Assembly: GCA_013152715.1 (NCBI GenBank)
Contig: JAADFU010000018.1
Span: 19,676 to 58,508 of the forward strand
Direction: 5' to 3'
Length of the DNA stretch: 38,833 bases
Origin: Calditrichota bacterium
GTDB lineage: Bacteria; Zhuqueibacterota; Zhuqueibacteria; Thermofontimicrobiales; Thermofontimicrobiaceae
The notes under the pieces were generated by a model, which was not told the origin of the DNA, did no database searches, and saw only the letters and a list, made by a program, of their open reading frames with translations. Both the position numbers and the translations under genes were made by a program. Positions 5,495-38,414 of the stretch are shown in pieces; within the stretch, counting starts at the first letter, position 1, and every line of letters begins with the position of its first letter.

Positions 5495-5506
5495 GGAGAT
5501 AAACTC

Positions 5507-6631: not shown

Positions 6632-6632
6632 G

Positions 6633-18630: not shown

Positions 18631-19533
18631 ATGAGAATCAAGATCGAAGATTTAACCAAACAGTACAAAAACGGCAATCTGGCTCTCAAAGATGTTAATT
18701 TGGAAATCGACAGCGGAATGTTTGGTTTGCTGGGTCCGAACGGCGCCGGCAAAACGACGCTGATGCGAATATTAGTAACGCTGATGAAACCCACCCGCGG
18801 AACGGCGCACTACAACGGACTTGAGTTACGAAAAAACAGACGAGAAATTCGCGCCATGCTGGGTTATCTGCCTCAGGATTTTCGCTTTTTTCAAAAATTA
18901 AAAACGTGGGAATTTCTCGATTACGTCGCCAGTCTTTCAGGCCTGCAAGACAGCAAAAAACGAAAACAAGCTGTCGATGAAATGCTGGAAAAAGTCGGCC
19001 TCTACGAAGCGAGAGACCGCAACGCCAACAAACTCTCCGGCGGCATGAAGCGACGCCTCGGAATCGCGCAAGCGCTCATCGGCGACCCTAAAATCGTTGT
19101 CGTGGACGAACCAACCACCGGACTTGACCCCGAAGAACGAATCCGTTTCCGTAACTTATTAGCCGAAATGGCGGAAAGAGACATCATCATTGTTCTCTCC
19201 ACACATATCGTCGGGGATATTTCCAGCACGTGCAACAACATGGCGCTACTGCACAACGGAGAAGTTGTGTTCAACGCTGCGCCAGACAAACTGATCGACA
19301 AAGCCCGCGGTCATGTCTGGGAAATTAACGCCATCGATAGCGAACTGGAACAAATCAAAGAAAAATATCCCGTCATCTCCACCATTCCTTCAGAAAACGG
19401 GTGGGAAGTGCAAATCGTCGCTGACAAATTGGACGATTTCCCGGGGAAACAAATCGATCCCAATCTGGAGCACGCCTACGTCTATTTCATGGAATTTGAA
19501 ATGGGACAAAAATGGAATGATGATTTGAATTAA
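18631..19533 (+). CDS. ABC transporter ATP-binding protein
   Basis: The 300-residue ATPase has all nucleotide-binding motifs: Walker A GPNGAGKT (35-42), Q-loop in YLPQDF, signature LSGGMKRR (135-142), Walker B IVVVDEPTTGLD with Asp159-Glu160, and the H-loop His192 in STHIV. An extra C-terminal part (about 225-300) follows, as in CcmA/NatA-type subunits serving ABC-2 exporters. It lies 49 bases before the permease-peptidase fusion gene and should energise it. Its core is strikingly like the C-terminal cassette of the RND-ABC fusion in the same cluster: both have SGMFGLLGPNGAGKTTLMRI and ERIRFRNLL. The two probably arose by duplication. It acts on the inner face of the cytoplasmic membrane. Confidence 0.95.
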   Translation: MRIKIEDLTKQYKNGNLALKDVNLEIDSGMFGLLGPNGAGKTTLMRILVTLMKPTRGTAHYNGLELRKNRREIRAMLGYLPQDFRFFQKLKTWEFLDYVASLSGLQDSKKRKQAVDEMLEKVGLYEARDRNANKLSGGMKRRLGIAQALIGDPKIVVVDEPTTGLDPEERIRFRNLLAEMAERDIIIVLSTHIVGDISSTCNNMALLHNGEVVFNAAPDKLIDKARGHVWEINAIDSELEQIKEKYPVISTIPSENGWEVQIVADKLDDFPGKQIDPNLEHAYVYFMEFEMGQKWNDDLN

Positions 19534-19582: not shown

Positions 19583-22500
19583 ATGTTGTCCTTATATAAA
19601 ATTTTGACCGTCGCTCGCTATGAAATGAAAACCTTGCTGCGAAGCTGGTTTTTTCGTATTTTTTCCATACTTGCCATTCTCATTCTGATTCTCCTCGATA
19701 TTGGCATGCACACCAAAGTTGGACGGACGCCCTGGTTTATGAACGGCTTGAACGCATCGCTGCCCTACATGGACATTCTGTTGCTGAACGTCGTGCAGGC
19801 GATTATCGGCGTTTTTCTGGCGTCCGACTTTCTCAAGCGCGACAAAAAACTGGACACCACAGAAGTTATTTACATGCGCTCTATGACCAACGGCGACTAT
19901 GTGTTGGGAAAAATGCTGGGCATTTTGTTGGTTTTTCTTGCCCTCAATATTATTGTGCTCATTATTTCAGCCATTTTTCATATTTTTTTCAGCCAGGCAA
20001 GCTTTGTTCTCGCGCCGTATTTTCTCTATCCGCTGCTCATCAGCTTACCGACGCTGATGTTTATTTTTGGTCTGTCATTTTTGTTCATGGTAGTCATTCG
20101 CAACCAGGCCGTCACCTTCATTGTTTTGCTGGGCTATATCGCCGTGACGCTTTTTTTCCTCGCCAGTAAAGCGCATTACATTTTTGACTACATGGCATTC
20201 AATGTACCATTGACATATTCTGATTTCGTTGGATTTGGCAATTTAGGAGCGATTCTCATCCATCGTGGTATTTATTTCCTGTTGGGATTGGGTTTTGTCT
20301 TCGCGACAATTTTCATGATCAAGCGCTTGCCACAATCCAGTGCCATGACCCGCTTTTCCGGCGTGTTTTCCGTTCTCTGTATCGCCGCGGCAATAACGCT
20401 GGGATTTGTCTATCTCTCCGGGTTTTCTCAGGGGACAGAGCTCAGAAGCGGCATCATGGAATTGAACAAACAGTTCGTTGACAAAGCAGCGGTTCAGCCC
20501 GTGCGCTACGACGTTACTTTGCTGCATCAGGGCGACAAAATTGACGTCAACGCCAAGCTCGTTTTCAAAAACGCCACCGACAAAAATATCGACGAGTATC
20601 TTTTTACTCTCAACCCCGGACTCAAAGTGAAAGCGGTCAGTTCCCGCTCTGGCAAGATTAGTTTTACTCAGCAAAAGAATCTCATCCTCGTGAATCCGAC
20701 GGCTCCGCTATCGCCGGGACAAGTTGATTCCTTGACTTTCGCTTACGCCGGTTCAATTAACGAACAGGCTTGTTACCTTGACGCCGACGAAAAGGCGCGT
20801 CAGAAATTGTACCGACTATGGATGTACAATGTCGCCAAAAAATTTGCGTTCATTGAGCCCGACTATGTGCTATTAACTCCGGCAGCGGAGTGGTACCCCG
20901 GCGCCGGGTTGCCGACCAGCGCACTTTATCCTCAAAAAACGAACAAAAATTTCTTCTCATTCAATTTAAATGTCAAAACAAATCCCAAGTTTACTGTCAT
21001 TTCTCAGGGAAGAATGGAAGACAAAGGCGACGGCAAATTCGTTTTCACTTCGGACAGGCCATTGACTCAGCGCACGCTGGTCATTGGGAAATATGAGCAG
21101 AAATCTATCGCTGTGGATAGCGTGAATTATCGTCTGTTTTATTTAAAATCCCATGATTATTTTTCTTCGTATTTCACCGATATTGGCGACACGCTGGCGG
21201 CGCTCATTCGCGACACAAAACAAGACTACGAAAATAAAATCGGACTGGAATATGTCTTTCCTCGTTTCTCTCTGGTTGAAGTTCCCATTCAATTTTTCTA
21301 TTATCCGCACTTGTGGACAGTCGGCACCGAGGCGGTGCAACCGGAAATGGCGTTGGTGCACGAAAAAGGCATATTAATGAATGGCGCAGATTTTAGCAAC
21401 CAATTTCGTTGGCAAAAACGGATGACAGATCGCAGCAATCAATCTATCACGCCGGAAGAGCGACAAAGCAACGTTTTTACGCAATTTTTGCGCAGCGGCC
21501 TTTTAAATAGCGGGTTTCGGCGCATGTTTTTCGAAGAAAGCATGTTGGGGCTGCATCCCGATTATCACGTTTTCCCCAATTATTTTACCTACGTCAATAA
21601 TTTCTCATCTTCATCAGCGCCAATTTTTAACGTCGCTTTTGAATCTTATTTGAGCGAGAAAACAAGTAATCCCGTCTCCGGTTTCCGGCGTTTTTTTGTC
21701 GGATTGACCGACGATGAAAAGGCAAATCTTGCTCTTGCGAATCAAAGCCTGGAGGAGCTTCTGAAAGATCCTGCCAAAAAAGACATCATCGACGGCGTGC
21801 TAAAACTAAAAGGTCAATATCTCTTTCAGTACATTCAAAGTCAAATCAAAGCAGAGAAGTTCGATACTTTTATCTCTGATTTTCTCAGCCAGCACCATTT
21901 TTCAACCACCAAAATCTCTGAATTCACGACTGCTTTGAAGCAAAAATCAAATTTTGATCTGATGCCGTATTTTGAACAATGGTACAAAACCAAAAAATTG
22001 CCCGCGTTTTTGACGACCAACATCGTCGCTTACAAATTTATCGACAACGATCGCACTCGCTATCAAATTAAATTCAAAATCGAAAACACTGAAGACGTGG
22101 AAGGTTTGATTTCAGTCAGCTTTCGCATGGCCGGCGGTCACGGCAGATTTTTTGGCATGGGCAGATCAGGCGCCGACCAGCCGGAAGAAAAATTTTTCCG
22201 CATAGGCGCGAACGAAATCAAAGAGATCGGCGTTGTCCTCGATGACGAACCGCGAATGTTGACAATTAATACCTTAATTTCCAAAAATCTGCCGGCTACC
22301 ATCAGCCGCCGTTTCGATAATCTGGAAATGGACAAAAAAGCAGTCGCCTTTGAAGGAGTCCGTAATTTGAAGGATCATTTGAGATGGATTGAGCCGAACG
22401 AAATCGTCGTGGACAATGAAGACGCCGGATTTGCCGCGCTCTCACAACACCAAGAAAGTTTTATTAAAAAATTATTCCGGTCTAAAAACACAGAGGACGA

Positions 22501-22927
22501 AAAATATATCGGCTTTAATTTCTGGCGTCCGCCGGCAAATTGGCGCGCTACGACCAACGCCGACTTTTTCGGCAAATTTATCCATTCGGCGCATTACCTC
22601 AAATCCGGAGACGGAAACAAAAGGGCTGTTTGGACCGCTGAAATTAAAAAAAGCGGGCAATACGACGTCTATTATTACTCGACAAAAATCGAAATGCCCT
22701 GGATGCGAAGAGGACGCAGGAAAAACAATTTCATTCAGGACTTCCATTTCATCGTTCACCATGACGACGGAGAAGAAGAAGTGGAGCTTGACATGAGCAA
22801 CGTAGAAACAGGCTGGTCTCTTTTGGGCACGTATTACATTTCCGCCGGCAAGACTCAGGTCGAATTGACAAATAAATCCAAAGGCAGAGTCGTATTTGCC
22901 GACGCCGTCAAATGGGTCAGACATTAA
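19583..22927 (+). CDS. ABC-2 type permease fused to M1-peptidase-like and golvesin-like domains
   Basis: The 1114-residue protein begins with an ABC-2 type membrane domain (TM1 at about 22-43, further helices to about 275). A large extracytoplasmic region (about 300-850) follows the fold order of M1 aminopeptidases. The expected zinc motif HExxH is absent; EAVQPEMALVHEKG near 584-597 stands in its place, so this domain is probably inactive. The last 140 residues (about 975-1114: FWRPPANW, ADFFGKFIHSAHYLKSGDG, AVWTAEIKKSGQYDVYYY, GRVVFADAVKWV) resemble the golvesin/Xly carbohydrate-binding-like domain. ABC permeases fused to M1-like domains are known; the added C-terminal domain is less familiar to me. 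With the ATPase 49 bases upstream it forms an exporter or an envelope machine that handles a surface peptide or glycan (inference). Confidence 0.85.
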   Translation: MLSLYKILTVARYEMKTLLRSWFFRIFSILAILILILLDIGMHTKVGRTPWFMNGLNASLPYMDILLLNVVQAIIGVFLASDFLKRDKKLDTTEVIYMRSMTNGDYVLGKMLGILLVFLALNIIVLIISAIFHIFFSQASFVLAPYFLYPLLISLPTLMFIFGLSFLFMVVIRNQAVTFIVLLGYIAVTLFFLASKAHYIFDYMAFNVPLTYSDFVGFGNLGAILIHRGIYFLLGLGFVFATIFMIKRLPQSSAMTRFSGVFSVLCIAAAITLGFVYLSGFSQGTELRSGIMELNKQFVDKAAVQPVRYDVTLLHQGDKIDVNAKLVFKNATDKNIDEYLFTLNPGLKVKAVSSRSGKISFTQQKNLILVNPTAPLSPGQVDSLTFAYAGSINEQACYLDADEKARQKLYRLWMYNVAKKFAFIEPDYVLLTPAAEWYPGAGLPTSALYPQKTNKNFFSFNLNVKTNPKFTVISQGRMEDKGDGKFVFTSDRPLTQRTLVIGKYEQKSIAVDSVNYRLFYLKSHDYFSSYFTDIGDTLAALIRDTKQDYENKIGLEYVFPRFSLVEVPIQFFYYPHLWTVGTEAVQPEMALVHEKGILMNGADFSNQFRWQKRMTDRSNQSITPEERQSNVFTQFLRSGLLNSGFRRMFFEESMLGLHPDYHVFPNYFTYVNNFSSSSAPIFNVAFESYLSEKTSNPVSGFRRFFVGLTDDEKANLALANQSLEELLKDPAKKDIIDGVLKLKGQYLFQYIQSQIKAEKFDTFISDFLSQHHFSTTKISEFTTALKQKSNFDLMPYFEQWYKTKKLPAFLTTNIVAYKFIDNDRTRYQIKFKIENTEDVEGLISVSFRMAGGHGRFFGMGRSGADQPEEKFFRIGANEIKEIGVVLDDEPRMLTINTLISKNLPATISRRFDNLEMDKKAVAFEGVRNLKDHLRWIEPNEIVVDNEDAGFAALSQHQESFIKKLFRSKNTEDEKYIGFNFWRPPANWRATTNADFFGKFIHSAHYLKSGDGNKRAVWTAEIKKSGQYDVYYYSTKIEMPWMRRGRRKNNFIQDFHFIVHHDDGEEEVELDMSNVETGWSLLGTYYISAGKTQVELTNKSKGRVVFADAVKWVRH

Positions 22928-24569: not shown

Positions 24570-24705
24570 TAGCTATTTTTCTGCATTGCGTGCGAAAAAA
24601 ATGGTCGAAAATTTATCCGGATTTGACAAAAAAGCTCATTATTTTTTTAGCTGAAACGTTTTGATTTTATTTTTTATGAACATCTGCAGCAAACGCAAGC
24701 CTTAT

Positions 24706-24755
24706 CGTGGTTTCTCTTTTCTCTCTGTGGTCTCTGCGATTCTGCGGCTGAATAA
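24706..24755. repeat. CACAGAGA-type quasi-periodic sequence (minus-strand sense) before the adaptor gene
   Basis: The run reads TGGTTTCTC, CTCTCTGTGG, TCTCTGCGA and TCTGCGGCTGAAT in succession, units of about 9-10 bases; its reverse complement gives CGCAGAGACCACAGAGAGAAA. It lies within an in-frame extension upstream of the adaptor gene that I do not regard as coding. The rest of the 24570-24780 gap shows no gene. Confidence 0.5.
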
Positions 24756-24780
24756 GTATAAAAAAACAAAGGAGTTAAGC

Positions 24781-25836
24781 GTGAAACTGAAGTCAACAAT
24801 TTTGCTTTTGGGAATGATCGTTTTTTTGATCGGATGCGGCGGTCAACAGGGCGACACCGGCGCTGAAGTTGCAGTTCCGGTATCCGTGCAAGAGATAAAG
24901 AAAAAACCCATCGAAGAATTTCTGACAGCGACGGGTACGGTCAAAGCCATTAAAGAAGCGACATTGAAATCGGAAACATCGGGACTTTATCGTCTCGCGA
25001 CGAATCCAAAGACGGGAAAGCCTTACGGATTGGGCGATTTTGTGCCGCAAGGCGCCGTAATTATTTATCTTGACAACCCTGAGTTAGAAAGCTCAATTAT
25101 GATTGAGTCAAAAAAGTTGGAACTGGAAGTATCCAAACAGGAACTGGAAAAACAAAAATCGCTTTACGAAAAAGGCGGTGCAACTTACCGCGATTTGAAA
25201 AATGCAGAAAAAAGCTACATGAACGCGCAGTATAGCTATGAGAACGCAAAAATTCAATTGGCAAAACTGAAGATCGTCGCTCCTTTTGGCGGCGTCATCG
25301 TTGATTTGCCTTATTTCACTTCTGGCGTGAAAGTGGACGCCGGACAAACAATGGTAAAAATGATGAACTACCGCCGGTTGTACATGGAAGTTAACCTCCC
25401 CGGCAAATGGTTAGGTCAGGTAAAAGAAAATCAGCCGGTGCGTGTGATGAATTACACGATGCCCGAAGACACGTTGCCCGGTCGCATCTCTCAGGTTTCC
25501 CCGGCGCTGGATTCGGACACGCGTTCTTTCAAATCCACTATTTTGGTAGAAAATCCGGACTGGAAATTGCGACCCGGCATGTTCGCCAAGGCGGAAATTG
25601 TCATTGCGCGCAAAGATAGCGCTATTGTAATTCCCAAAGATGTTATTCTGGTGAAACGTCGCGGCAAAACTGTTTTTGTCGCGGAAAAGGGCGCGGCGCT
25701 GGAACGAGTGATTTCGACCGGACTGGAGAATCCGGATGAAGTCGAAGTAACCGACGGGCTAAAAGAAAACGAGCGGTTGGTTATCAAAGGATTTGAAACT
25801 TTGCGGCATCGGTCGAAAGTGAAAATCATTCGTTAA
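24781..25836 (+). CDS. RND efflux periplasmic adaptor, lipoprotein (export cluster 2)
   Basis: The 351-residue adaptor begins with a lipoprotein signal LLLGMIVFLIGC (Cys19). It then has a barrel-sandwich half with ATGTVKAIKEATLKSETSG, a coiled-coil hairpin (about 95-150, LEVSKQELEKQKSLYEKGGATYRDLKNAEKS), the closing half KIVAPFGGVIVDLPYF, and beta-barrel parts with KLRPGMFAKAEIVI. I chose GTG 24781 because AAAGGAG lies 6-7 bases before it and it gives a clean signal. A reading from ATG 24661 would add 40 residues that are translated repeat DNA. It should dock the RND permease encoded 92 bases downstream, and perhaps the RND-ABC fusion, to the TolC channel upstream. Confidence 0.92.
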   Translation: MKLKSTILLLGMIVFLIGCGGQQGDTGAEVAVPVSVQEIKKKPIEEFLTATGTVKAIKEATLKSETSGLYRLATNPKTGKPYGLGDFVPQGAVIIYLDNPELESSIMIESKKLELEVSKQELEKQKSLYEKGGATYRDLKNAEKSYMNAQYSYENAKIQLAKLKIVAPFGGVIVDLPYFTSGVKVDAGQTMVKMMNYRRLYMEVNLPGKWLGQVKENQPVRVMNYTMPEDTLPGRISQVSPALDSDTRSFKSTILVENPDWKLRPGMFAKAEIVIARKDSAIVIPKDVILVKRRGKTVFVAEKGAALERVISTGLENPDEVEVTDGLKENERLVIKGFETLRHRSKVKIIR

Positions 25837-25928: not shown

Positions 25929-28900
25929 ATGAGAAAACTAACTGAATTTTCTGTTAATTATCCCATTACTATCCTGATGCTGGTGCTGGCGGTTGTGCTT
26001 TTGGGATATATTTCATTCAGCAAATTAGGGGTTGATCTTTTTCCTGATTTGAACAATCCACGAATTTTTGTGGAACTCAAGGCTGGCGAAAAGCCTCCCG
26101 AAGAGATCGAAAAACAATTCGTGGAAAGCATCGAGGCGCTTGCCATTCGGCAAAAAAAAGTCGTACAGGTTTCTTCTGTCACCCGGGTTGGATCCGCACA
26201 AATTACCGTGGAATATAGCTGGGACGCCGACATGGACGAGGCGTTTCTGGATTTGCAAAAAACGCTGACCAGTTTCACGCAAAATTCCGAAATTGAAGAG
26301 TTGGTAATCACGCAGCACGATCCAAATACAGCACCGATCATGTTGCTCGGATTTTCCAATGAAAACATTGACGACATGGACGAATTGCGTCGGGTCGCAG
26401 AAAATTATCTGCGCAATGAGTTGATTCGATTAGAGGGCATTGCCGAAGTCAAGCTACTGGGTCAGGAAGAAAAGGAAGTTGTGCTGGAAACAAATCCCTA
26501 TTTGCTGGAAGCCTATAACCTGACTCCGTCCGCTATCACCAGCAAGCTGCAGAGTTACAACCGAAATGTTTCCGGCGGCTCCATCGTCGAGATGGGGAGA
26601 AAATATGTCATCAAGGGAGTCGGGGAATTCCAATCGCTGGAAGACATCAAAAATGTGATTGTCACTTACAAGCAGCCAACCGCGACCAATACCGGTCAAA
26701 CCCCGCAGACGCGGGAACGCGTACCTGTTTTTTTGAAGGACGTCGCCAAAGTCAAATTGCAGAACAAAGACCCGGAGAACATTGTTCACGTCAACCAAAA
26801 ACGGTGCATGGGTCTGGAAATTTACAAAGAGACAAAATTCAATACAGTGAAAGCGACCAATGCCCTGCAGAAAGAATTGGCAAAACTGCGCAAAGCGCTG
26901 CCAGGCTACAAACTCACTGTCATTCAGAATCAGGGAGATTTTATCAATCAAGCAGTGGACGAAGTCAAGCAAACCGCTCTGATCGGCATTCTGTTAGCGA
27001 TACTGATCTTGTTTGTCTTTCTGCGCCGCGTCGGCACGACGTTCATTATCAGTCTGGCGATTCCCATTTCCATCATCGCCACTTTCAACTTGATGTATTT
27101 CAACGGACTCACATTGAACATCATGACGCTGGGAGGTCTGGCCTTAGGCGCCGGAATGTTGGTGGATAATGCCATTGTAGTGATGGAAAATATTTTTCGA
27201 AATTTAGAGTCCGGGCTATCGTTGAAAGAGGCGTCCATCCGCGGCGCCGCTGAAGTGGGCGGAGCAATTACCGCCTCAACGCTGACCACGATTGTCGTTT
27301 TTCTGCCCATCGTTTTTCTTCACGGCGCAGCAGGAGAACTGTTCAAAGATCAGGCATGGACAGTGGCGTTTTCTTTGCTCTCATCGTTAGTCGTCGCCAT
27401 TTTGGTCATTCCCATGTTGAGCGCGCGATTGCTTAAAACGCCGCAGCTCGACGTCGAACAAAAATCGATCCGATTTCCCGGTTACGCGACTTTTTTGTCA
27501 AAGATGCTATCCCACCGCTGGAAAGTGATCGGCGCGGCAGCCTTGTTAGTGGCGATCTCGATTTTGCTTATCCCCTTCGTGGGCAGCGAATTCATTCCCA
27601 AAACAGACCTGGGTGAATTCTCCATTGAGGTAAAATTGCCTGCGGGAACCGACCTTCGCCGCACCGAGCAAACCATCACCGGCATTGAAAATTTGATCCA
27701 CGAAACATACGGCGATGAAATAAATTTGATTTACAGCCAGATAGGCCCGGCAGCCTCGGATGTCTCTTCAACGGAAGAATCCATTTTGGAAGATGAAAAC
27801 ACCGGAACTATAAAAATTATCCTCAACGACAACCACAAAATTCCGGCGCAAAAAATAATCGCTCATCTGGGGCAGGTTTTGGGCGATATTCCCGACGTGG
27901 AAACCCAGTTCATTCAAGAGCAGACAGCATTACAAGCCACACTTGGCACAGAAGTCGCGCCGATAATTGTTGAAATCAAGGGCGAAGATTTGGACGTCAT
28001 CCAGGATTTGACCAATCAGGTGAAGAAAAAGGTAGCATCAGTGCCCGATCTCATCAACATCGAGACCAGCTTTGACGAAGGCAGACCTGAGGTCGAGCTT
28101 GTTGTCGATCGAATCTCCGCCGGCATGTACAATCTGGGCATCAATGAAATTAGTAGTCAATTGCAGAACTATCTCAAAGGCCGCAGCGCCGGCTCCTGGG
28201 ATTACGAAGGCGAACTAAAAGACATTACGCTGCGGCTGCCGAAAATGAGCGTGGGCGAACTGGGAAATATTCAACTCAATAACGGCGAGCAAAAGATACC
28301 GCTGTCCGAAGTGACAAAAATTCGCATCGAAAATGCGCCAAAAGAAATCAAGCGCCGCAATCAGATTCGCATCGGAGAGGTGACAGCTCACATTCAATCG
28401 AACAGGCCGTTTAACCACATCGTCGCTGATATTCGCAATCAACTGAAAGACATCGATTTCCCGACAGATTATAAATATGAAATCACCGGCGAAGAACAAA
28501 AACGTTCGGAAGCGTTTCACAATTTGAAATTCGCTTTGTTTTTGTCGATCATTCTCGTTTACATGGTCATGGCGTCGCAATTTGAGTCGCTCATTCACCC
28601 GCTCACTATTTTACTCACGATTCCGCTTGCCGGCGTGGGCGCGATTCTGATCTTTTTCCTGTTGGGAAAAACGCTGAACATCATGGCCTACATTGGCATC
28701 ATCATGCTGGCCGGCATCGCGGTGAACGACTCGATTATTTTAGTGGATGCAATAAATCAGTTGAAACGGGAAGGACTGTCGCGCTGGGACGCCATCATCG
28801 AAGCCGGGCAACGCAGAATCAGACCCATCATCATGACCAGCTTGACGACTATTTTGGCGCTGCTGCCGCTGACTTTTGGCTTCGGCGAAGGCGCAGCGCT

Positions 28901-29024
28901 CCGCGCGCCCATGGCGCTGGCGGTGATCGGCGGTTTGATCACGTCGACGATCTTGACGCTGATTGTGATCCCTTGTGTCTATTTGGTTTTTGATCAAATA
29001 CATTTTGGCAGCGAACAGAAATAA
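25929..29024 (+). CDS. RND efflux permease (export cluster 2)
   Basis: The 1031-residue protein is a complete RND pump: TM1 at about 10-30, GVDLFPDLNNPRIFV, a first porter region, TM2-6 (about 335-510), TM7 near 535, FIPKTDLGEFSIEVKLPAGTDLRRTEQ, a second porter region, and TM8-12 starting near 870 (VYMVMASQFESLIHPLTILLTIPL). TM4 carries Asp413-Asn414 (GMLVDNAIV) and TM10 AVNDSIILVDAINQL. The second Asp and the Lys of the AcrB relay are thus replaced, but TM10 keeps an Asp after Asn (ND), unlike the other two RND proteins in the window. The first porter domain contains a Thr/Gln-rich insertion (TYKQPTATNTGQTPQTRE, about residue 250). Only a weak AAAGAAAG site precedes ATG 25929. It may pair with the next RND protein as MdtB does with MdtC (inference). 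Confidence 0.94.
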   Translation: MRKLTEFSVNYPITILMLVLAVVLLGYISFSKLGVDLFPDLNNPRIFVELKAGEKPPEEIEKQFVESIEALAIRQKKVVQVSSVTRVGSAQITVEYSWDADMDEAFLDLQKTLTSFTQNSEIEELVITQHDPNTAPIMLLGFSNENIDDMDELRRVAENYLRNELIRLEGIAEVKLLGQEEKEVVLETNPYLLEAYNLTPSAITSKLQSYNRNVSGGSIVEMGRKYVIKGVGEFQSLEDIKNVIVTYKQPTATNTGQTPQTRERVPVFLKDVAKVKLQNKDPENIVHVNQKRCMGLEIYKETKFNTVKATNALQKELAKLRKALPGYKLTVIQNQGDFINQAVDEVKQTALIGILLAILILFVFLRRVGTTFIISLAIPISIIATFNLMYFNGLTLNIMTLGGLALGAGMLVDNAIVVMENIFRNLESGLSLKEASIRGAAEVGGAITASTLTTIVVFLPIVFLHGAAGELFKDQAWTVAFSLLSSLVVAILVIPMLSARLLKTPQLDVEQKSIRFPGYATFLSKMLSHRWKVIGAAALLVAISILLIPFVGSEFIPKTDLGEFSIEVKLPAGTDLRRTEQTITGIENLIHETYGDEINLIYSQIGPAASDVSSTEESILEDENTGTIKIILNDNHKIPAQKIIAHLGQVLGDIPDVETQFIQEQTALQATLGTEVAPIIVEIKGEDLDVIQDLTNQVKKKVASVPDLINIETSFDEGRPEVELVVDRISAGMYNLGINEISSQLQNYLKGRSAGSWDYEGELKDITLRLPKMSVGELGNIQLNNGEQKIPLSEVTKIRIENAPKEIKRRNQIRIGEVTAHIQSNRPFNHIVADIRNQLKDIDFPTDYKYEITGEEQKRSEAFHNLKFALFLSIILVYMVMASQFESLIHPLTILLTIPLAGVGAILIFFLLGKTLNIMAYIGIIMLAGIAVNDSIILVDAINQLKREGLSRWDAIIEAGQRRIRPIIMTSLTTILALLPLTFGFGEGAALRAPMALAVIGGLITSTILTLIVIPCVYLVFDQIHFGSEQK

Positions 29025-29241: not shown

Positions 29242-32200
29242 ATGAACATCATTCGCTTCGTCATAAATCGCAAAACATTCATCACCATGCTTTTTATCGC
29301 CGTGACCATGCTCGGTTACATTTCGTACAAACAATTGCCGGTGGAACTGATTCCGGACGCGGAATTGCCGTTTCTCATCATTCAGGTCACTTCTGTTCGG
29401 GAAGTTGATCCGGAATACATGGAAAAACAAGCGCTCATTCCATTGGAGGGCGCCGCGAGTACACTGGAAGGCATCGACAAAATTGAATCTTACGCCGACA
29501 GACGACGCGGCATGATCACGGTTTATTACAATAAAAATGTGAAAATAAAATATGCTTATTTAAAACTGCAAGAGCAGATGAATGCCGTCAAAAATTCGCT
29601 GCCCGAGGAGTTTATTGTCAATGTATTAAAAATAGACACCCAACAATTGTCCAATATGTTCATGTCCCTGCAGGTGCGCGGCAGCGGCGGACTGGATCGT
29701 TTGCGGGAAATTATCGACAAAAAAGTCACGCCGGATTTGCAAAATATCGACGGCATCGCCAATGTAGAAATTTTTGGCGGTCGCGAAAAATCCGTGGAGA
29801 TTATTTTGAAAGAAGACGCGGCGGAAGCATACAACATCACGCCGTCTCAGATCCGCTCACTCATCGCCCAGAACTCGCAAAATAAAACTTTCGTGGGACA
29901 GGCTTACGAAAAAGACAAGCAATATTTTGTCAATTTAGTTGCGGAATACACCGACGTCAACGATCTGGAAAACATCATCGTTCGCCGAACCGGCCCTGTG
30001 TATTTGAAAGACGTCGCCGATGTTTTTGTTGGTTACAAAGAAGAGACCTCGATCAGCCGCGTCAATGGCAAAGACGCGCTGACTATTCAGCTTGTCCGCG
30101 ACGCACAGGTGAATTTGATTTCACTCTCCCACGAAACGCAGAAAGTGATCGCCAAACTGAATGAGAAATTAGCGCCGCAGGACGTGGAAATTGTCATCCA
30201 GCAAAACAGCGCCGAAGAGATGGAAAAAAATATTGATCTCATCATCAAGTTAGCGATCATTGGCGGGCTTTTGGCTGTGATCATTTTGTATCTTTTTTTG
30301 CGAAATTTTAGCCTTGTCGCCGTCATTTCACTCGCTATGCCCATTTCCATTTACACGGCGTTCAACTTTTTCTATGCCTATGATATTTCCATCAACAGCC
30401 TGACCCTTGTCGGCATCGCGCTGGCAATCGGAATGCTTCTGGACAATAGCGTGGTGGTGTTAGAAAATATCTATCGGCTTGCCTCGTCGGGAACCAGAAA
30501 TCTCACCGATTCGGTCGTTCAAGGCACTAAAGAAGTCTGGCGCTCCATTTTTGCGGCGACCATGACCACCGTGGTCATTTTTCTCCCGTTCGTTTTTGCT
30601 ACGAATTTTTTCGTGCGCTTGATGGGAAGGCACATCTCTGTCTCCATCATTTCCACGCTGCTGGTCTCGCTCATTGTCGCTCTGCTGCTCATTCCCATGG
30701 TGACGCATTTCTTTTTGAACCGCTGGAAAAAGACCAGGCCTTCGGGAAGTCATTTCAATATTGTCAATCCGAAAAATCGCCTGCTGCAAATTTATCGCGT
30801 CATTTTGAAATCTTCCATGCGTTTCCCGCCGCGGACGATTCTGGCGGCAGTGATCGCTTTGTTTCTCAGCTTAGTCATTTGTCTCGCGTTGAGCGTGGAC
30901 GTTTCCAGAGAGCCGGAGCTGACTGATTTCAATTTGTACGTGACCATGCCCAGCGGCTCCACGCTCGAAGCGACAGACCTTGTCGTCGCTGATCTGGAAA
31001 AACGATTGGCAGATATCGAGGAAAAGCAGGACGTCATCAGCCAGATTTACGAAGAAGAGGCTATTCTGACTATCAAATTAAAAAAAGATTACCAGAAAAT
31101 AAAAAATCGGACAGTGGCGCAAATCAAGGATGAAATAAACGATCGCATCAAAGATTTCCGCTCCGCTGAAGTCAGTTTTGAGCAGCCTCAGTCCAGCCAG
31201 CGCTTCCGCGGCGGCATGGGCCGAAATCCCGGCGCCGGATTTGAGCGAATGTTGGGCATCGGCGCGCAAACGGAAAAAGTAGTTATTAAGGGCAATAATT
31301 TTGGCGTCATGACCAAATTGGCTGACGATATTCGTTACTATTTAGAAGATCTCAGCACGATTGACTGGGCGCGAGTAAATGTCAGCGAAAACAGACCCGA
31401 AGTTCAACTCTTGTTTGACAATCGGTTGCTCAGTGAATTTAACGTTCCCATTTCCAACGTCGCCGCGGAACTGGCGAGTTTTCAGTCGGAAATCAGCTCC
31501 GGGCTCAAATACAAGCAAGGCGTGGACGAGTACGACATCATCATTCGCCGCGAAAATACTGAAGACAAAAATATGGACGATTTGCGGGAATTGCGCATTC
31601 GGTCTCAGTCCGGGGGAATTGTCGATTTGAATCAATTGAGCCGCATCGTCTATTCTAGCGGCACCGGGCAAATCAACCGCGTCAATCAGGAAAAAGAAGT
31701 TGAAGTTTCCTATAAGTTACTGGATGAAATAAATGGCTCTAAATCCCTGCTCAACGCGGCGCGTCAGCAAATAGACGATCTCGTCGCTAATCTGGAGCTG
31801 CCGCCGGGCGTCGCGGTTGAAGTGGTGCACGACGAGCGCGAAATGAACGAATTTTACTTTCTCATCGGCGCCGCTATTCTGCTGGTGTACATGATTCTGG
31901 CGTCTGTTTTTGAGTCGCTCTCCACGCCGCTGGTGATCATGTTCTCCATTCCCATGGCTGCCATCGGTTCGTTGTGGGCGGTAATTTTAACGGGAAATTC
32001 AATCATCAATCCGCTGACGCTAATCGGTTTCATTATTTTAATGGGTCTTGTGGTCAACAACGGAATTATTTTGATCGATTACACGCGTATTTTGCGCCAG
32101 CGAGGCAATCGCAGGTCGCGCGCGCTAATGACAGCCGGCCAGGCGCGAGTCAGACCGATTCTCATTACAGCGATTACGACCATCGTCGCCATGATTCCGC

Positions 32201-33969
32201 TGGCGATGGGCAAAGCCGAATACGTCACGCAAATCGGCGCGCCGTTCGCCATTACCGTCATTGGCGGTTTGTCTTTGAGCACGTTGCTGACGCTGGTTTT
32301 TATTCCCACGGTTTACACCGGACTGGAGACTGCGCTGCAGTGGATGCGAGGCGTGGAATGGAAAACGAAACTGATCTGGCTCGGCGTTTTCATCGCCGGA
32401 GCTTTTCTGATCGACTACAATTTCTTTTCCTGGCTCTGGAAAACGATCATGCTGTTACTGCTCATCGTGGCGATACCGCTGACGACCTATTTTGTCAAAG
32501 TGAGTCTGCGCCGCGCCAGAGAGGATATTATCAGCCCCGACGAACCATTGCACATTCGCATCAAACACGTAGTGAAAATTTACGATGACTATTCCCGATT
32601 TATCCGCGAGTGGAAAAAAGGGAAATTCATCCGACAGCGCGCCGGACTGGACAAAGATTTTCATTCATGGCGCGACTTCGACGCGCTCATGTGGCAAATT
32701 CCGTTGCTCGGTTTTCTCATCTATTTTGTCTATTTTTACCTGTACAGCTTTTTCTGGATTTTTGTCATGAGCCACGCCGTGTATTTTTACGGTCTCTTTT
32801 TCTGGAAACCCATTCAAATTTATTTGACAAATCAATTTGAGAAAACCGGCAAAAAATATTACCGGCGAATTATTGATTGGTTTTTTCCGGCATTTTTCTG
32901 GGGATTTCCTTTGTTGAATTTGGCCATTTTCTATTTCCGCTGGAAAGACATCCCGGCAATCATTTTCATCGCGGTGGTGTGGTATTTGTCGCTCGCCATT
33001 TATGTAACTTCCAATAAACTGCACCGCGAAAAAATAAATATCATGCGTCTGACAGGGCGCTTTGCCGGGATCAGAAAGTCTTTTTACCGCTTTGTGCAAA
33101 TCATTCCCATTATCGGCAAAAAGAAAAATCCGTTCAAGGCGCTGGCCGGAATTTCATTAGAAATCGGCAGCGGCATGTTTGGTTTGCTCGGCCCCAACGG
33201 CGCCGGTAAAACTACGCTGATGCGCATCATTTGCGGAATTTTGGAACAAACGCGCGGCACCATCTGGATCAATGGCATTGACCTGAAACAAAAACGGGAA
33301 GAATTGCAGGGTTTGATTGGGTATTTGCCGCAGGAATTTGGCACTTACGAAAATATGACGGCCTACGAATTTTTGCAATATCAGGCAATTTTGAAAAATA
33401 TGTACGACAAAAAACAACGTGACGACCGTGTGGATTATGTGCTGCGCGCTGTCCATCTGGAAGACAAGAAAGATCAAAAAATCGGGGCTTTTTCCGGCGG
33501 GATGAAGCAGCGCATCGGGATCGCCCAGACTTTGCTGCATTTGCCGCGCATTCTCGTCGTGGACGAACCTACCGCCGGGCTGGATCCTCGCGAACGGATT
33601 CGTTTTCGCAATTTGCTGGTGGACCTGGCGCGGGAACGCATCGTGATTTTCTCCACGCACATTATCGAAGATATTTCCAGCTCGTGTAACATGCTCGCAG
33701 TACTCAATCGGGGCAAACTGTGCTATTTTGGCGCGCCGCAGGACATGACTCGCCTCGCCGAAGGAAAAGTGTGGCAATTTAAAATTGATCCCGGCGAATT
33801 TGAAACCTTGCGCCGCCAGCATCAGATCATTCACCACATGCGCGATGGCGAGCAGATTCGCGCGCGCTGTCTGTCAGCAGAAAAACCAGTTTCCAATGCA
33901 AAAGTCGTTTTACCGACGCTGGAGGACGCCTATCTCTGGCTGCTGCGCAAAACTGAAGGTCATGAATAG
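29242..33969 (+). CDS. RND efflux permease fused to an ABC transporter ATPase (RND-ABC chimera)
   Basis: One uninterrupted 1575-residue chain. Residues 1 to about 1033 are a full RND pump: TM1 VTMLGYISYKQLPVELIPD, GMLLDNSVVV with Asp401-Asn402 in TM4, MILASVFESLSTPLVIMFSIPM in TM8, and LVVNNGIILIDY in TM10. The second porter part has a Gly/Arg-rich insert near 654-668. Residues about 1043-1257 add roughly six hydrophobic helices (1043-1059, 1069-1085, two within 1153-1187, 1214-1232, 1237-1257) that match no RND part. Residues about 1285-1575 are an ABC ATPase: Walker A GPNGAGKTT from about 1317, signature FSGGMKQR near 1417, Walker B ILVVDEPTAGLD near 1437, H-loop STHII near 1471. An even number of added helices keeps the ATPase in the cytoplasm. 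An ABC-2 permease gene follows. ATG 29242 is preferred over TTG 29236. Coupling of proton-driven and ATP-driven steps is inference. Confidence 0.9.
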   Translation: MNIIRFVINRKTFITMLFIAVTMLGYISYKQLPVELIPDAELPFLIIQVTSVREVDPEYMEKQALIPLEGAASTLEGIDKIESYADRRRGMITVYYNKNVKIKYAYLKLQEQMNAVKNSLPEEFIVNVLKIDTQQLSNMFMSLQVRGSGGLDRLREIIDKKVTPDLQNIDGIANVEIFGGREKSVEIILKEDAAEAYNITPSQIRSLIAQNSQNKTFVGQAYEKDKQYFVNLVAEYTDVNDLENIIVRRTGPVYLKDVADVFVGYKEETSISRVNGKDALTIQLVRDAQVNLISLSHETQKVIAKLNEKLAPQDVEIVIQQNSAEEMEKNIDLIIKLAIIGGLLAVIILYLFLRNFSLVAVISLAMPISIYTAFNFFYAYDISINSLTLVGIALAIGMLLDNSVVVLENIYRLASSGTRNLTDSVVQGTKEVWRSIFAATMTTVVIFLPFVFATNFFVRLMGRHISVSIISTLLVSLIVALLLIPMVTHFFLNRWKKTRPSGSHFNIVNPKNRLLQIYRVILKSSMRFPPRTILAAVIALFLSLVICLALSVDVSREPELTDFNLYVTMPSGSTLEATDLVVADLEKRLADIEEKQDVISQIYEEEAILTIKLKKDYQKIKNRTVAQIKDEINDRIKDFRSAEVSFEQPQSSQRFRGGMGRNPGAGFERMLGIGAQTEKVVIKGNNFGVMTKLADDIRYYLEDLSTIDWARVNVSENRPEVQLLFDNRLLSEFNVPISNVAAELASFQSEISSGLKYKQGVDEYDIIIRRENTEDKNMDDLRELRIRSQSGGIVDLNQLSRIVYSSGTGQINRVNQEKEVEVSYKLLDEINGSKSLLNAARQQIDDLVANLELPPGVAVEVVHDEREMNEFYFLIGAAILLVYMILASVFESLSTPLVIMFSIPMAAIGSLWAVILTGNSIINPLTLIGFIILMGLVVNNGIILIDYTRILRQRGNRRSRALMTAGQARVRPILITAITTIVAMIPLAMGKAEYVTQIGAPFAITVIGGLSLSTLLTLVFIPTVYTGLETALQWMRGVEWKTKLIWLGVFIAGAFLIDYNFFSWLWKTIMLLLLIVAIPLTTYFVKVSLRRAREDIISPDEPLHIRIKHVVKIYDDYSRFIREWKKGKFIRQRAGLDKDFHSWRDFDALMWQIPLLGFLIYFVYFYLYSFFWIFVMSHAVYFYGLFFWKPIQIYLTNQFEKTGKKYYRRIIDWFFPAFFWGFPLLNLAIFYFRWKDIPAIIFIAVVWYLSLAIYVTSNKLHREKINIMRLTGRFAGIRKSFYRFVQIIPIIGKKKNPFKALAGISLEIGSGMFGLLGPNGAGKTTLMRIICGILEQTRGTIWINGIDLKQKREELQGLIGYLPQEFGTYENMTAYEFLQYQAILKNMYDKKQRDDRVDYVLRAVHLEDKKDQKIGAFSGGMKQRIGIAQTLLHLPRILVVDEPTAGLDPRERIRFRNLLVDLARERIVIFSTHIIEDISSSCNMLAVLNRGKLCYFGAPQDMTRLAEGKVWQFKIDPGEFETLRRQHQIIHHMRDGEQIRARCLSAEKPVSNAKVVLPTLEDAYLWLLRKTEGHE

Positions 33970-34047: not shown

Positions 34048-34767
34048 ATGAACTCAAGAACTAAAATCAAAAACAGTCTCTCCTTAATCAATAGTTTGGT
34101 CAAATTTAATTTGAAAATCATTTTCGCCAACAAGTTTCTCTATTTCCTATTAGCGGCAGTGATTTTCTTTTTACTGGTGACTATTCTAAATTTAGCCAGT
34201 TCAGATTCAGAAGTTTCAGAAGGGATTGTTTATTACTGGCTGCTCGTGCCAGGCTTGCTCCTCGTATTTTACCCGACGGTTTTCGGCATCCAAAATGATG
34301 TGGACTCGCGCATGATCGAAATTCTGTTCGGTATTCCCAACTATCGCTACAAAGTCTGGCTGGTGCGCATGGCGCTCATCTACTTTGTCGTCGCGCTGAT
34401 TTTACTAATTCTGGCACTGCTCAGCTCCGTCGCACTGATTCCGATTTCCGTTTTCAGCATGGTTTACCAACTCATGTTTCCCATTTTTTTCATCGGCTGC
34501 GCCGCATTCATGATTTCCACAATGGTCAGAAACGGCAACGGTACGGCAGTCGCCATGGTCATCATCGGACTATTTTTTTGGATCGGAACCGGCTTTCTGC
34601 CCGACAAATTCAATCTATTTTTGAATCCCTTTTCCGTGCCGTCAAATGTAAACGAAGCGGTCTGGGCAGATACGACATTTAATAACCGGCTCTACATTTT
34701 TATCGGAACGATTATTTCTGTGCTGGTTGGGTTAATTATGCTGCAGAAAAGGGAGAAGTTTGTTTGA
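34048..34767 (+). CDS. ABC-2 type permease
   Basis: The 239-residue protein is almost entirely membrane-spanning, with about six helices (near 29-50, 62-80, 108-130, 140-158, 165-185, 215-233). It carries a cytoplasmic loop DVDSRMIEILFGIPNYRYKVWLVR, a pattern typical of ABC-2 exporter subunits, where an amphipathic coupling segment follows the second helix. No ATPase is encoded with it except the C-terminal cassette of the protein immediately upstream, 78 bases away. That cassette is therefore its likely energy source (inference). If so, the complex would join RND, ABC ATPase and ABC-2 parts. A GGAG (34031-34034) lies 13 bases before the ATG, a rather long spacing. Confidence 0.82.
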   Translation: MNSRTKIKNSLSLINSLVKFNLKIIFANKFLYFLLAAVIFFLLVTILNLASSDSEVSEGIVYYWLLVPGLLLVFYPTVFGIQNDVDSRMIEILFGIPNYRYKVWLVRMALIYFVVALILLILALLSSVALIPISVFSMVYQLMFPIFFIGCAAFMISTMVRNGNGTAVAMVIIGLFFWIGTGFLPDKFNLFLNPFSVPSNVNEAVWADTTFNNRLYIFIGTIISVLVGLIMLQKREKFV

Positions 34768-34848: not shown

Positions 34849-35304
34849 ATGAAAAAGAAAAAATCAAAAATAACCGCGAACAAAGAAGCGCAACAAATCA
34901 CCACCCTGGTGAACGACAATTTTTTACAAGCGCTGAATATTTTGGAAGGGCAACTGAATGTACTTCATCTGCGGGCGCAGGTGCTCATGAGTCTCGCCGG
35001 GATTGTCATTACAGTCACCGGATTTTCCGGCAGATCAATTGCCGGGACGTCGCTGATTGCACAGATTTTGATCATCGCCGGCTTGGCAACGGTGCTCACT
35101 TCCGCGGTGTGGGTTTTTCTGAAAGTAATGACCGTGAAATGGCTGACGGCAGAAAATTTTGCTGAACCGCAAAAAACTTTGATCAAAATAATCGAACGCC
35201 GGAACAGAAAGACGCGCGCGTTTGTTAACGGCGGAAAAATTTTGTGCTTCGGGCTGTTTCTTTACGCTGCGGCATTTGCGCTCATGTTGCTCCATGCCCA
35301 GTAA
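34849..35304 (+). CDS. Small membrane protein of unknown function
   Basis: I do not recognise this 151-residue protein with confidence. A lysine-rich cytoplasmic start is followed by an amphipathic helix (LVNDNFLQALNILEGQLNVLHLRAQ). Two adjacent hydrophobic helices come next (about 45-60 and 70-90), then a charged stretch (KTLIKIIERRNRKTRAF) and a last hydrophobic helix (about 128-148). Helix order and length recall small effector-type membrane proteins of the PycTM/SMODS-associated kind, but no nucleotide cyclase is nearby, so that idea is weak. It has its own promoter directly against the ATG and no Shine-Dalgarno sequence, and is likely transcribed alone. It lies 82 bases after the ABC-2 permease gene. 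Confidence 0.7.
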   Translation: MKKKKSKITANKEAQQITTLVNDNFLQALNILEGQLNVLHLRAQVLMSLAGIVITVTGFSGRSIAGTSLIAQILIIAGLATVLTSAVWVFLKVMTVKWLTAENFAEPQKTLIKIIERRNRKTRAFVNGGKILCFGLFLYAAAFALMLLHAQ

Positions 35305-35549: not shown

Positions 35550-38414
35550 ATGATTCCCAAAAGGCAATCTCATCGCTATTTCCTTTTCGCGCTTTTCTTG
35601 TTCATGCTTTTGGCGACAATCTTTTCCCCGCTAAAAGCGATTGACAAAAAACCGTTGACCCACGATGTTTACGACACCTGGAAATCCATCCAGCGGCCGC
35701 AAATCTCGCCGGATGGCAAGTGGATTCTCTATTTGGAAACACCGCAGAAAGGCGATGCATTTTTGGTGGTCAAAAATGTTGATTCGGGCAAAACTTTTCG
35801 TCAATTGGTCGGCTTCTCCGGTGACGGCACTAGCGCCCACACCGCAGCGAAACCGAAATTTAACTATGAAGCAACGCATGTCGTTTTCATGATTTCGCAT
35901 TCCAAAGCGGAAGTGGATTCTCTCAAAAAAGCGAAGAAGAAAAGCAAAAAGAAAAAAATAAAAAAAATGGGCATTCTGGATCTGGTGAGCGGCGAAGTTG
36001 TCGTCGTTGACAGCGTGAAAAGCTTTTCTTTGCCTGAAAAAAATGGCAGTTGGCTGGCGTATTTGAAGGAAGCGGCCAAAGACACCTCGAAAAAGAAAGA
36101 CAAATCCAAAGCTAAAACCGAAGAAAAAAAATCCGAGGAAAAAAATAAAAAGAAAAAAGAAAAAAAGGACGGGACGCCACTGATTGTTCGTTCGCTAAAA
36201 ACTGGAGCGGAGACAAAATTTCAGCACATCACTGACTATCGCTTCACTAAAAAGGGCGATCATCTTTTTGTTATCATTTCCGATAAAAAGAAAGCAGGCG
36301 ATGACGGCGTTTACGATATTGGACTGGGAGAGACAGTTTCCGCGGCACAGCCAATTCTCACCGGCAAAGGCCATTACAAAAAATGGGCAACCGACAAAAA
36401 CGAAACCTATCTGGCGTTTCTGACAGACAGGGACGACTTTGAGGCGGACACGCCGACATTCAATCTGTACGGCTGGAAAATCGGCGACAGAACCGCGACA
36501 CTGTGGGTTTCGCACAAAGAGACGAAAAACTTTCCGGCAGGCATGGCTGTGAGTGACAAATCCGGCATCTCATTCAGCAAGGATGGCAAAATCGTCACTT
36601 TCGGCGTCAAAGAAATCCCGGCACCAGAGCCGGAAGACTCAACCGAAACAGAGACAGCAAAATTTGATCTCTGGCACTGGAACGATCCCTATCCGCAGCC
36701 GCAGCAGAAAAAAATGGCGCAGCGTGTCCGCGACAATACGTGGGAGTCCGTCTATTTCATAAAATCAAAAAAATTCGTCAAATTGGCGGACGAAAAATTG
36801 CCGGACGTTTTGCTCACTCCAACAGGAAAAATTGCTTACGCCAACAATGGCTGGCCTTACGCGAAACTGGTCGCTTACGACGGTTCTTACTCCGATGTTT
36901 ACATCGTCAATCCCAAAAACGGCAGCCGAAAATTGATCAAACAAAAATTGTACGGCAGAGCCAGCATTTCCCCGAACGCAAAATACGCCTACTGGTTTGA
37001 AAACGGAGATTGGTTCGCCTACAATATCAAAACAAATCGCACAGTCAATCTGACAAAAGGACTTGGCGTCCGCTTTGATCTGGAAGATTGGGACACGCCG
37101 AATCCGGCTCGCGCTTACGGCATCGCCGGCTGGACTGACGGTGACAAATCTATTTTAATTTACGACCACTTTGACATCTGGCAAGTTAATCCTGACGGCA
37201 AAAATGCTCGATGCATCACTGAAAGTTTTGGCAGAAAAAATAATTTGTCTTTCCGCTACGTCGATCTGGACAGGGAAAAAGACACTGTTGATCCGACAAA
37301 ACCGATGCTGCTGAAAACGGTGAACACGGAAACGATGGCGTCCGGATTTTATCGGGACAAAGTAAACGGAAACGCGCTGCCGGAAAAATTGTTCATGAGT
37401 GATGCCGGACTCGGACGGCGAATTGCTAAAGCGAGAAATGCGGATCGGCTCATGTTCACGTACTCTCGCTTTGATCAATTTCCTGATTTACGGATTAGTG
37501 ATTTAAATTTTACTATTTTCAAAAAAGTAACCGATCTCGGCGCGCAGATGAAGCCGTACATCTGGGGGTATGCCGAATTGAGAAATTTTCTCAGCGCTGA
37601 CGGCAAGCCGCTGAAGGGCATTCTGATTAAACCCGAAAATTTTGATGCCAATAAAAAATATCCGCTCATGGTTTATATTTACGAAACGCTGCACGACGGC
37701 TTGCATAATTTCCGCAATCCGGCTCCGGGAACAAGCATCAATCCGTCGTTTTATGTGAGCAATGGCTATTTGTTGTGGGAGCCGGACATCGAATACGATA
37801 CCGGCTATCCGGGACACGATGCATTGAAATGCGTTTTGCCGGGAATTCACATGCTGATTCGCGAGGGAATTGTCGATCCCAAGCGCGTGGGCATCGCCGG
37901 TCATTCCTGGGGCGGGTACCAGATTGCTTACATGGTGACGCAGACAAATATTTTTGCTGCAGCGGAATCCGGCGCACCGGTGAGCAATATGATCAGTTCC
38001 TACGACGGAATTCGCTGGGGAACGGGTATGGTGCGGCAATTCCAATACGAAAAGACGCAGAGTCGGCTCGGTGCAAGTCTGTGGGAAGTGCCCATGCGCT
38101 ACATTGAAAATTCCCCGATTTTTTGGGTCGATAAAATTCAAACGCCGCTGCTCATCATGCACAACGACAAAGACACGGCAGTGCCCTGGTATCAGGGAAT
38201 CGAATTCATCATGGCGCTGCGCCGTCTGAAAAAAGAGGCGTACATGTTCAACTACAACGGCGAACCGCACGGTCTCAGAAAACGCGTCAATCAGGAAGAT
38301 TGGACAAAGCGCATGTTTCAATTTTTCGAACATTTTCTTAAAGACAAACCTGCGCCGAAGTGGATGACCGACGGCATCAAAGCATGGGAAAAACCGGCGC
38401 CTAAAAAGAAATAA
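35550..38414 (+). CDS. Secreted S9 family serine peptidase (prolyl oligopeptidase / dipeptidyl peptidase type)
   Basis: The 954-residue protein has a signal peptide (LFALFLFMLLATIFSPLKA), a long beta-propeller region (about 40-650; SPDGKWILYLE, SFSKDGKIVTFGV, SPNAKYAYWFENGDW) and a C-terminal alpha/beta hydrolase (about 690-945). The catalytic triad reads Ser786 in AGHSWGGYQ, Asp875 in NDKDTAVPW and His907 in GEPHGL. S9 enzymes cut short peptides, often after proline; exact specificity is not readable. Two very lysine-rich insertions, about residues 126-140 and 181-208, interrupt the propeller. They are coded by long A-runs and have no family counterpart that I know. The enzyme probably works in the periplasm or outside the cell. 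A strong ribosome binding site suggests high expression. Confidence 0.93.
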   Translation: MIPKRQSHRYFLFALFLFMLLATIFSPLKAIDKKPLTHDVYDTWKSIQRPQISPDGKWILYLETPQKGDAFLVVKNVDSGKTFRQLVGFSGDGTSAHTAAKPKFNYEATHVVFMISHSKAEVDSLKKAKKKSKKKKIKKMGILDLVSGEVVVVDSVKSFSLPEKNGSWLAYLKEAAKDTSKKKDKSKAKTEEKKSEEKNKKKKEKKDGTPLIVRSLKTGAETKFQHITDYRFTKKGDHLFVIISDKKKAGDDGVYDIGLGETVSAAQPILTGKGHYKKWATDKNETYLAFLTDRDDFEADTPTFNLYGWKIGDRTATLWVSHKETKNFPAGMAVSDKSGISFSKDGKIVTFGVKEIPAPEPEDSTETETAKFDLWHWNDPYPQPQQKKMAQRVRDNTWESVYFIKSKKFVKLADEKLPDVLLTPTGKIAYANNGWPYAKLVAYDGSYSDVYIVNPKNGSRKLIKQKLYGRASISPNAKYAYWFENGDWFAYNIKTNRTVNLTKGLGVRFDLEDWDTPNPARAYGIAGWTDGDKSILIYDHFDIWQVNPDGKNARCITESFGRKNNLSFRYVDLDREKDTVDPTKPMLLKTVNTETMASGFYRDKVNGNALPEKLFMSDAGLGRRIAKARNADRLMFTYSRFDQFPDLRISDLNFTIFKKVTDLGAQMKPYIWGYAELRNFLSADGKPLKGILIKPENFDANKKYPLMVYIYETLHDGLHNFRNPAPGTSINPSFYVSNGYLLWEPDIEYDTGYPGHDALKCVLPGIHMLIREGIVDPKRVGIAGHSWGGYQIAYMVTQTNIFAAAESGAPVSNMISSYDGIRWGTGMVRQFQYEKTQSRLGASLWEVPMRYIENSPIFWVDKIQTPLLIMHNDKDTAVPWYQGIEFIMALRRLKKEAYMFNYNGEPHGLRKRVNQEDWTKRMFQFFEHFLKDKPAPKWMTDGIKAWEKPAPKKK

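Follow-up and report, generated by a model that had tools for sequence, protein, structure and literature searches.

RND pumps and ABC transporters are regarded as distinct classes, each with an energy source of its own, and a single reading frame of a Calditrichota bacterium (GenBank assembly GCA_013152715.1, contig JAADFU010000018.1) encodes modules of both. The locus raises the question of whether the two modules truly form one chain and, if so, what such a chain might do within its operon and what might power it. The window considered here is the whole stretch of 38,833 nucleotides that was analysed (positions 19,676 to 58,508 of the contig, forward strand), and all coordinates refer to it.

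The fusion protein and its homologues

A preliminary description of the window had proposed that a complete RND permease continues in frame into about six extra transmembrane (TM) helices and then a full ABC ATPase. The frame is indeed uninterrupted from the ATG at 29242, 5' of which lies a purine-rich AAGGA stretch, to the stop codon ending at 33969, and is divided as follows.

29242..33969, plus strand: gene 6, RND-ABC fusion; 1575 aa, 179.8 kDa; 95 full-length homologues
29242..32331, plus strand: RND permease module, complete; residues 1-1030
32359..32520, plus strand: two predicted extra TM helices leading from the RND module to the NBD; residues 1040-1093 (AlphaFold2 H45-65 and H69-98)
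32554..32583, plus strand: predicted first NBD strand and A-loop; residues 1105-1114 (AlphaFold2 strand, conservation, ABC1 alignment, decoy test)
32590..33117, plus strand: predicted insert inside the NBD; residues ~1117-1292
33127..33966, plus strand: rest of the NBD; residues 1296-1575 (Pfam, conservation, Foldseek matches to 4yer, LptB and NosF)

The Pfam model ACR_tran matches residues 3-1026 (569 bits, E 2.1e-170) over profile positions 1-1018 of 1021, a coverage that identifies a full-length HAE-type RND permease, and ABC_tran matches residues 1303-1445 (108 bits). Walker A (1317-1325), the Q-loop, the signature (FSGGMKQR, 1417-1424), Walker B with its Glu (1439-1442), the D-loop and the H-loop (1473) are all intact and essentially invariant across the 95 homologues; in sequence scores the NBD is NosF-like and GldA/DrrA-like. 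Translation of a separate ATPase from an internal start, which the preliminary description had also discounted, is unlikely because no candidate codon is conserved: Met1268 occurs in 4 of the 95 homologues, and Met1312 lies within the NBD, past its first strands. Both modules, RND permease and ABC ATPase, are complete within the one chain.

The homologues, a handful of which represent the same genome reached by two routes, come from candidate division KSB1, Calditrichota, Chlorobiota, Melioribacteraceae, Krumholzibacteriia/Krumholzibacteria and many Bacteroidota, and their carriers include isolates of Prolixibacter, Mangrovibacterium, Labilibaculum and Flavilitoribacter. Because fused homologues span phyla, isolates included, the fusion is real and old; the possibility that homologues would always be two separate genes does not hold, and chance and misassembly are excluded. 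A scan of named genomes returned 114 relatives, of which 80 were kept, and a single fusion copy per genome was found in nine of nine named genomes. When the linker alone (residues 1027-1299) served as query, matches were obtained in the genomes of 41 of 99 relatives; apart from those truncated at contig ends, almost all lay in open frames of ~1560-1630 aa. A linker profile detected the fusion in 41 of 82 genomes from the phylum, each with a single copy save for split copies, and in at least 6 of 396 genomes sampled around that of Prolixibacter, a count that may be low, six candidates per genome having been scored.

The four split copies are due to frameshifts, insertions or N-gaps in draft MAGs: L051 and L056 contain inserted sequence, L052 an N gap plus a frame change, and L112 a frame change. 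In L056 and L051 (draft genomes G006 and G046), ~200 bp of extra sequence within the linker breaks the fusion (L056:5516-5720, L051:7025-7223); the extra stretch in L056 reads like a dispersed repeat. Although the source genome, like most of the relatives, is a draft MAG and these four copies are split, the idea that two neighbouring genes were joined artificially by assembly, frameshift or read-through can be dismissed in view of the 95 full-length fused frames, with isolates such as Prolixibacter, Labilibaculum and Flavilitoribacter among them, the monophyly of the fusions and the location of part of the NBD upstream of the inserted helices, so that no cut in the insert gives a whole ATPase.

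The fused NBD appears to be split by membrane helices

An AlphaFold2 model of residues 996-1575 of gene 6 (37 sequences, mean pLDDT 83.5) bears out the proposed number of extra helices, predicting six of approximately membrane-spanning length after RND TM12 (1040-1060, 1064-1093, 1152-1166, 1170-1202, 1205-1234 and 1237-1263). The ATPase had been placed after all six of these; instead, the NBD appears to begin ~180 residues earlier, with its first strand and A-loop at ~1102-1114. The segment LhIrIknLvKIYd (1102-1115) aligns with the canonical first strand and A-loop of NBDs, including that of ABC1, the stand-alone ATPase of the operon, in which its counterpart is 'MRIKIEDLTKQYKNG' and that of residues 1105-1114 is MRIKIEDLTKQY, and K1112 and Y1114 are invariant in 95 of 95 homologues. 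A 10-residue strand is predicted exactly at 1105-1114. Since DSSP assigns a strand only where it finds pairing, and lists no other before the NBD, the only possible partners are NBD strands, and the predicted strand should pair inside the NBD, as judged from the program output rather than from coordinates.

Profile comparisons point in the same direction. When the ~180 residues before NPFKALAGIS are omitted from the query, the A-loop aromatic lies on the first strand at the canonical spacing from Walker A (~25-26), and most alignments to NCBIfam NBD models begin at profile positions 1-5, compared with ~10-17 otherwise. In a decoy test with these models, the insert-free query scored up to ~8 bits above shuffled prefixes or the native preceding 23 residues; the DrrA, proV and UrtD models gained nothing from the A-loop segment. 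Taken with the predicted structure, these alignments strongly indicate that the NBD is split after its A-loop by a four-TM membrane insert, in which an amphipathic helix, four TM helices (1152-1263) and a second amphipathic helix are predicted to follow one another. To our knowledge, membrane helices interrupting an NBD would be a new topology for one of the best-studied ATPase folds.

The proposal that the extra helices form a coupling region between two complete modules is only partly borne out: two of them follow the RND module, and the other four appear to sit inside the NBD. Because the helix numbers are even (two plus four), the ATPase should stay on the side of the RND C terminus, i.e. 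in the cytoplasm, in agreement with the original helix count. No Pfam family was detected in more than 2 of 21 members for the insert, and no solved homologous structure was found. Candidate families for the linker and insert were rejected, an AcrZ-like match (E 0.79) and matches to UbiA and SemiSWEET being at chance level.

A conserved seven-gene operon

The fusion gene is the sixth of seven genes, which encode, in order, an ABC ATPase, an ABC-2 permease with a dead M1-like domain, a TolC-type channel, an adaptor, an RND permease, the RND-ABC fusion and a further ABC-2 permease. Besides gene 6, they are as follows.

18631..19533, plus strand: gene 1, ABC1, stand-alone ABC ATPase (Pfam ABC_tran, 112 bits); present in 20 of 20 extended loci
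19583..22927, plus strand: gene 2, ABC-2 permease with M1-like and Golvesin_C domains, 1114 aa
23073..24569, plus strand: gene 3, TolC-family outer-membrane factor (Pfam OEP, 1.1e-47)
24661..25836, plus strand: gene 4, periplasmic adaptor (membrane fusion protein; NCBIfam RND_mfp, 188 bits, cut-off 94.9)
25929..29024, plus strand: gene 5, RND1, unfused RND permease (ACR_tran, 768 bits), whose clade mirrors the fusion clade
34048..34767, plus strand: gene 7, half-size ABC-2 (type V) permease, 239 aa (AlphaFold2 pLDDT 88)

A cognate adaptor and outer-membrane factor are therefore encoded alongside the RND permeases. The gene order is identical in all 20 loci that were extended upstream, divergent clade-2 members included; for one of these, L171, gene 7 lay outside the stretch taken and was found in the overlapping locus L045. 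In the clade-2 loci L042 and L044, ABC1 and gene 2 are divergent beside the fusion and gene 7, and the channel, adaptor and RND1 are not adjacent. Gene maps of ~120 loci, some of which overlap where the same genome was fetched twice, place RND1 directly upstream of the fusion in 102 loci (median gap 39.5 bp) and a membrane protein of 230-260 aa directly downstream in 113 of 124 (median gap 28 bp).

The best Foldseek matches of gene 7 are to PmtCD, NosDFY and ABCG2 (probability ~1.0, E 0.007-0.1), and ABC2_membrane_3 is matched in 5 of 36 homologues (best 6e-8). An ABC-2 membrane subunit is thus encoded with the fused NBD, albeit with modest individual scores; with its 239 aa and these matches, gene 7 is not of the MacB type. 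The structural resemblance makes gene 7 a likely membrane partner of the fused NBD. The N-termini of gene 2 match ABC2_membrane_2 in 12 of 21 homologues (best 4e-7); a comparison of gene 7 with the gene 2 N-terminus using hhalign gave E 0.075 and a probability below 1%, both falling in ABC-2 families. The remainder of gene 2 has weak matches to Peptidase_M1 and Golvesin_C, and the HExxH zinc motif is absent from its M1-like domain in 20 of 20 homologues.

Other features of the window were noted in passing. Just past the operon lies a 151-aa ORF (34849-35304) that matches neither Pfam nor NCBIfam models and has a copy, at 65% identity, after gene 7 in L022; beyond it, 35550-38414 encodes a protein of 954 aa whose C-terminal domain is a prolyl oligopeptidase (S9) and which weakly resembles models of lasso-peptide isopeptidases. 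A further complete RND permease is encoded at 6615-9752 (889 bits to ACR_tran), just downstream of ORFs (3462-6631) that by size alone resemble a regulator, a channel and an adaptor, and the minus strand at 9909-11297 encodes a 462-aa protein with CdhD-like corrinoid and 4Fe-4S ferredoxin domains. In other genomes, RND-like frames of 1437-1502 aa in Bacteroidota (G264:C22, G454:C1, G454:C56 and G171:C22) have, by their length, room for another C-terminal fusion, possibly to a TolC domain.

Descent of the parts

All fusion RND domains form one clade (support 100), to which the RND1 proteins are the sister clade (support 100), bar one unrelated RND from L114 that was caught by the selection; a split into clades 1 and 2 is mirrored in the fusion RND and RND1 trees. 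The fused NBDs likewise form one clade and ABC1 another, the two being sisters within a clade (support 100/99) that holds one further paralogue. ABC1 and the fused NBD are 44% identical (250 bits), with the next match in the window's genome scoring 148 bits, and four Bacteroidota genomes encode their best other NBD ~8-10 kb from the fusion, at the place of ABC1. The mirrored RND clades and the sister NBD clades, together with ABC1 being the nearest relative of the fused NBD, imply that the parts descended together; phylogenetic analysis shows a single origin of the fusion and shared descent of the parts. Both pairs, the two ATPases and the two RND permeases, seem to have arisen by duplication within the system.

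Energy coupling

Proton-relay residues of AcrB, D407, D408, K940, R971 and T978, are essential in that pump (PMC8277102). The equivalents of D407, R971 and T978 are invariant in the 95 fusions, whereas D408 is replaced by N or S and K940 by N. The fusion thus does not carry the complete AcrB-type relay, which is AcrB's own, other RND groups such as CusA also differing from it. Since RND1 shares both the D408 and the K940 changes, these are not specific to the fusion, and a loss of proton coupling caused by fusion is unsupported; N at position 940 also occurs in two of the four unrelated RNDs examined. On these residues, proton coupling of the fusion RND is likely. Use of ATP by the fused NBD is very likely because its ATPase motifs are essentially invariant.

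Proposed mechanism and alternatives

The conserved RND-ABC chain within a seven-gene operon suggests one undescribed export machine with two energy sources. Our preferred reading, to which we assign a probability of roughly 55%, is a composite relay exporter, in which an ABC exporter is tethered to a proton-driven tripartite pump with the fusion protein as its core. The RND half would trimerise, probably mixed with RND1, and the trimer would form the proton-driven tripartite pump with the adaptor and the TolC-type channel. The fused NBD would power a type V (ABC-2) exporter with gene 7 as its membrane part, probably a heteromer with ABC1 and gene 2, gene 7 alone being the alternative. The ABC part would carry substrate out of the cytoplasm or inner leaflet, the tether would hand it from the ABC exporter to the RND pump, and the latter would pass it via adaptor and channel across the outer membrane. 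We infer the hetero-oligomers, the direction of the relay, the stoichiometry and the substrate class.

The composite exporter is favoured by the conserved fusion, the seven-gene order in 20 of 20 loci, the type V-like fold of gene 7, the ABC-2 N-terminus of gene 2, the mirrored RND1 and fusion clades, the NBD motifs, RND residues D407, R971 and T978, the split NBD and the single copy per genome; the sister relationship of ABC1 and the fused NBD fits subunits that arose by duplication within one machine. Against it stand the detection of gene 7 by Pfam in only 5 of 36 homologues, with modest Foldseek E-values, the replacements at D408 and K940, such that proton coupling is not assured, and the fact that operon conservation does not prove one physical complex. 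A trimeric RND pump and a dimeric ABC exporter also mismatch in number, unless, as proposed, the trimer is mixed in the manner of MdtB2C (PMC4338810), which would reconcile the two. More tentatively, and at rather less than even odds, the system may represent an undescribed class of trans-envelope exporter, in which a mixed trimer (RND1 plus RND-NBD) sits on a heterodimeric type V exporter (ABC1/fused NBD; gene 2/gene 7), substrate is relayed from the cytoplasm to the outside and the membrane-anchored NBD insert acts as a new coupling device.

Neighbouring genes of joint function commonly fuse, and since gene 7 is an ABC-2 permease, the NBD could serve an independent ABC-2 exporter, with the fusion fixing only co-expression or location and no substrate being relayed. 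We consider this unlikely: the fusion, its linker and insert, and the seven-gene order are kept across phyla, with RND identity down to ~35%, a retention that argues for a specific mechanical role of the fusion.

The preliminary description had envisaged ATP being coupled to the RND pump itself. An ATP-powered or ATP-gated pump, with the NBD acting on the RND trimer via the extra helices and replacing or supplementing the proton gradient, would accord with the covalent link, the two TM helices right after RND TM12, the conserved four-helix NBD insert and the replacement of two AcrB proton-relay residues by N or S. It is nevertheless a doubtful reading, given that D407, R971 and T978 are invariant, that the D408 and K940 replacements are common to unfused RND1, and that an ABC-2 permease gene adjoins the fusion in nearly every locus. 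Given the likeness of gene 7 to a subunit of type V ABC exporters, this permease, a pairing we infer, is what the fused ATPase most likely drives, as part of a separate, tethered ABC exporter, rather than the RND pump.

FtsEX and MacB transmit force, and by analogy ATP binding by the NBD might assemble or open the RND-adaptor-channel complex, with no ABC substrate involved. Retention of all catalytic motifs and the presence of an adaptor and outer-membrane channel would fit such a regulatory or assembly role, which is nonetheless distinctly improbable, being weakened by the resemblance of gene 7, among the matches listed, to PmtCD, NosDFY and ABCG2 and not to MacB or FtsX folds.

With a conserved chain that holds both modules, one can test directly whether a single export pathway can be driven by ATP hydrolysis together with the proton gradient, and ask how a periplasm-loading RND pump obtains substrate from a cytoplasmic-side exporter. 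The cultured carriers Prolixibacter, Labilibaculum, Mangrovibacterium and Flavilitoribacter enable such studies without recourse to metagenomes.

Comparison with known systems

We found no description of an RND/ABC union in one chain, of a helix-interrupted NBD or of the seven-gene system in the open-access literature, an absence that is not proof, and the accessible part of a 2021 review of tripartite pumps does not mention an RND-ABC fusion. The system resembles MacAB-TolC in having an ABC ATPase alongside an adaptor and a TolC-type channel; it differs in that MacB, a single ABC protein, has a periplasmic domain of its own and lacks an RND module, and no MacB-like match was present among the Foldseek matches listed for gene 7. 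SecDF is powered by the proton motive force and has an RND-type membrane domain (PMC8277102). Unlike the fusion, it lacks an ATPase domain, and it serves the Sec translocon instead of a tripartite pump. SecDF functions with a smaller complement of charged residues in the membrane, and the same would be required of the fusion.

There are also likenesses to HAE-type RND tripartite pumps, especially the heteromeric MdtABC-TolC, and to type V exporters. MdtB and MdtC are two different RND permeases that assemble as a B2C heterotrimer (PMC4338810), and both systems have a full RND permease with adaptor and channel, and two RND permeases side by side. Here, however, one permease is extended by six extra TM helices and, at its C terminus, an ABC ATPase, the operon adds two ABC-2 permeases and a second ABC ATPase, and D408 and K940 are not conserved; in the tree, AcrB, MdtBC and CusA fall outside the group formed by the fusion and RND1. 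The type V exporters PmtCD, NosDFY, DrrAB and ABCG2 are similar with respect to the gene 7 fold and the sequence and fold of the fused NBD, but here the NBD belongs to the same chain as an RND pump and is apparently split by a four-TM insert, and its likely partner permease is separate and half-size. RND and ABC modules are each well known, and there is a substantial chance that the system combining them here merits recognition as a separate class.
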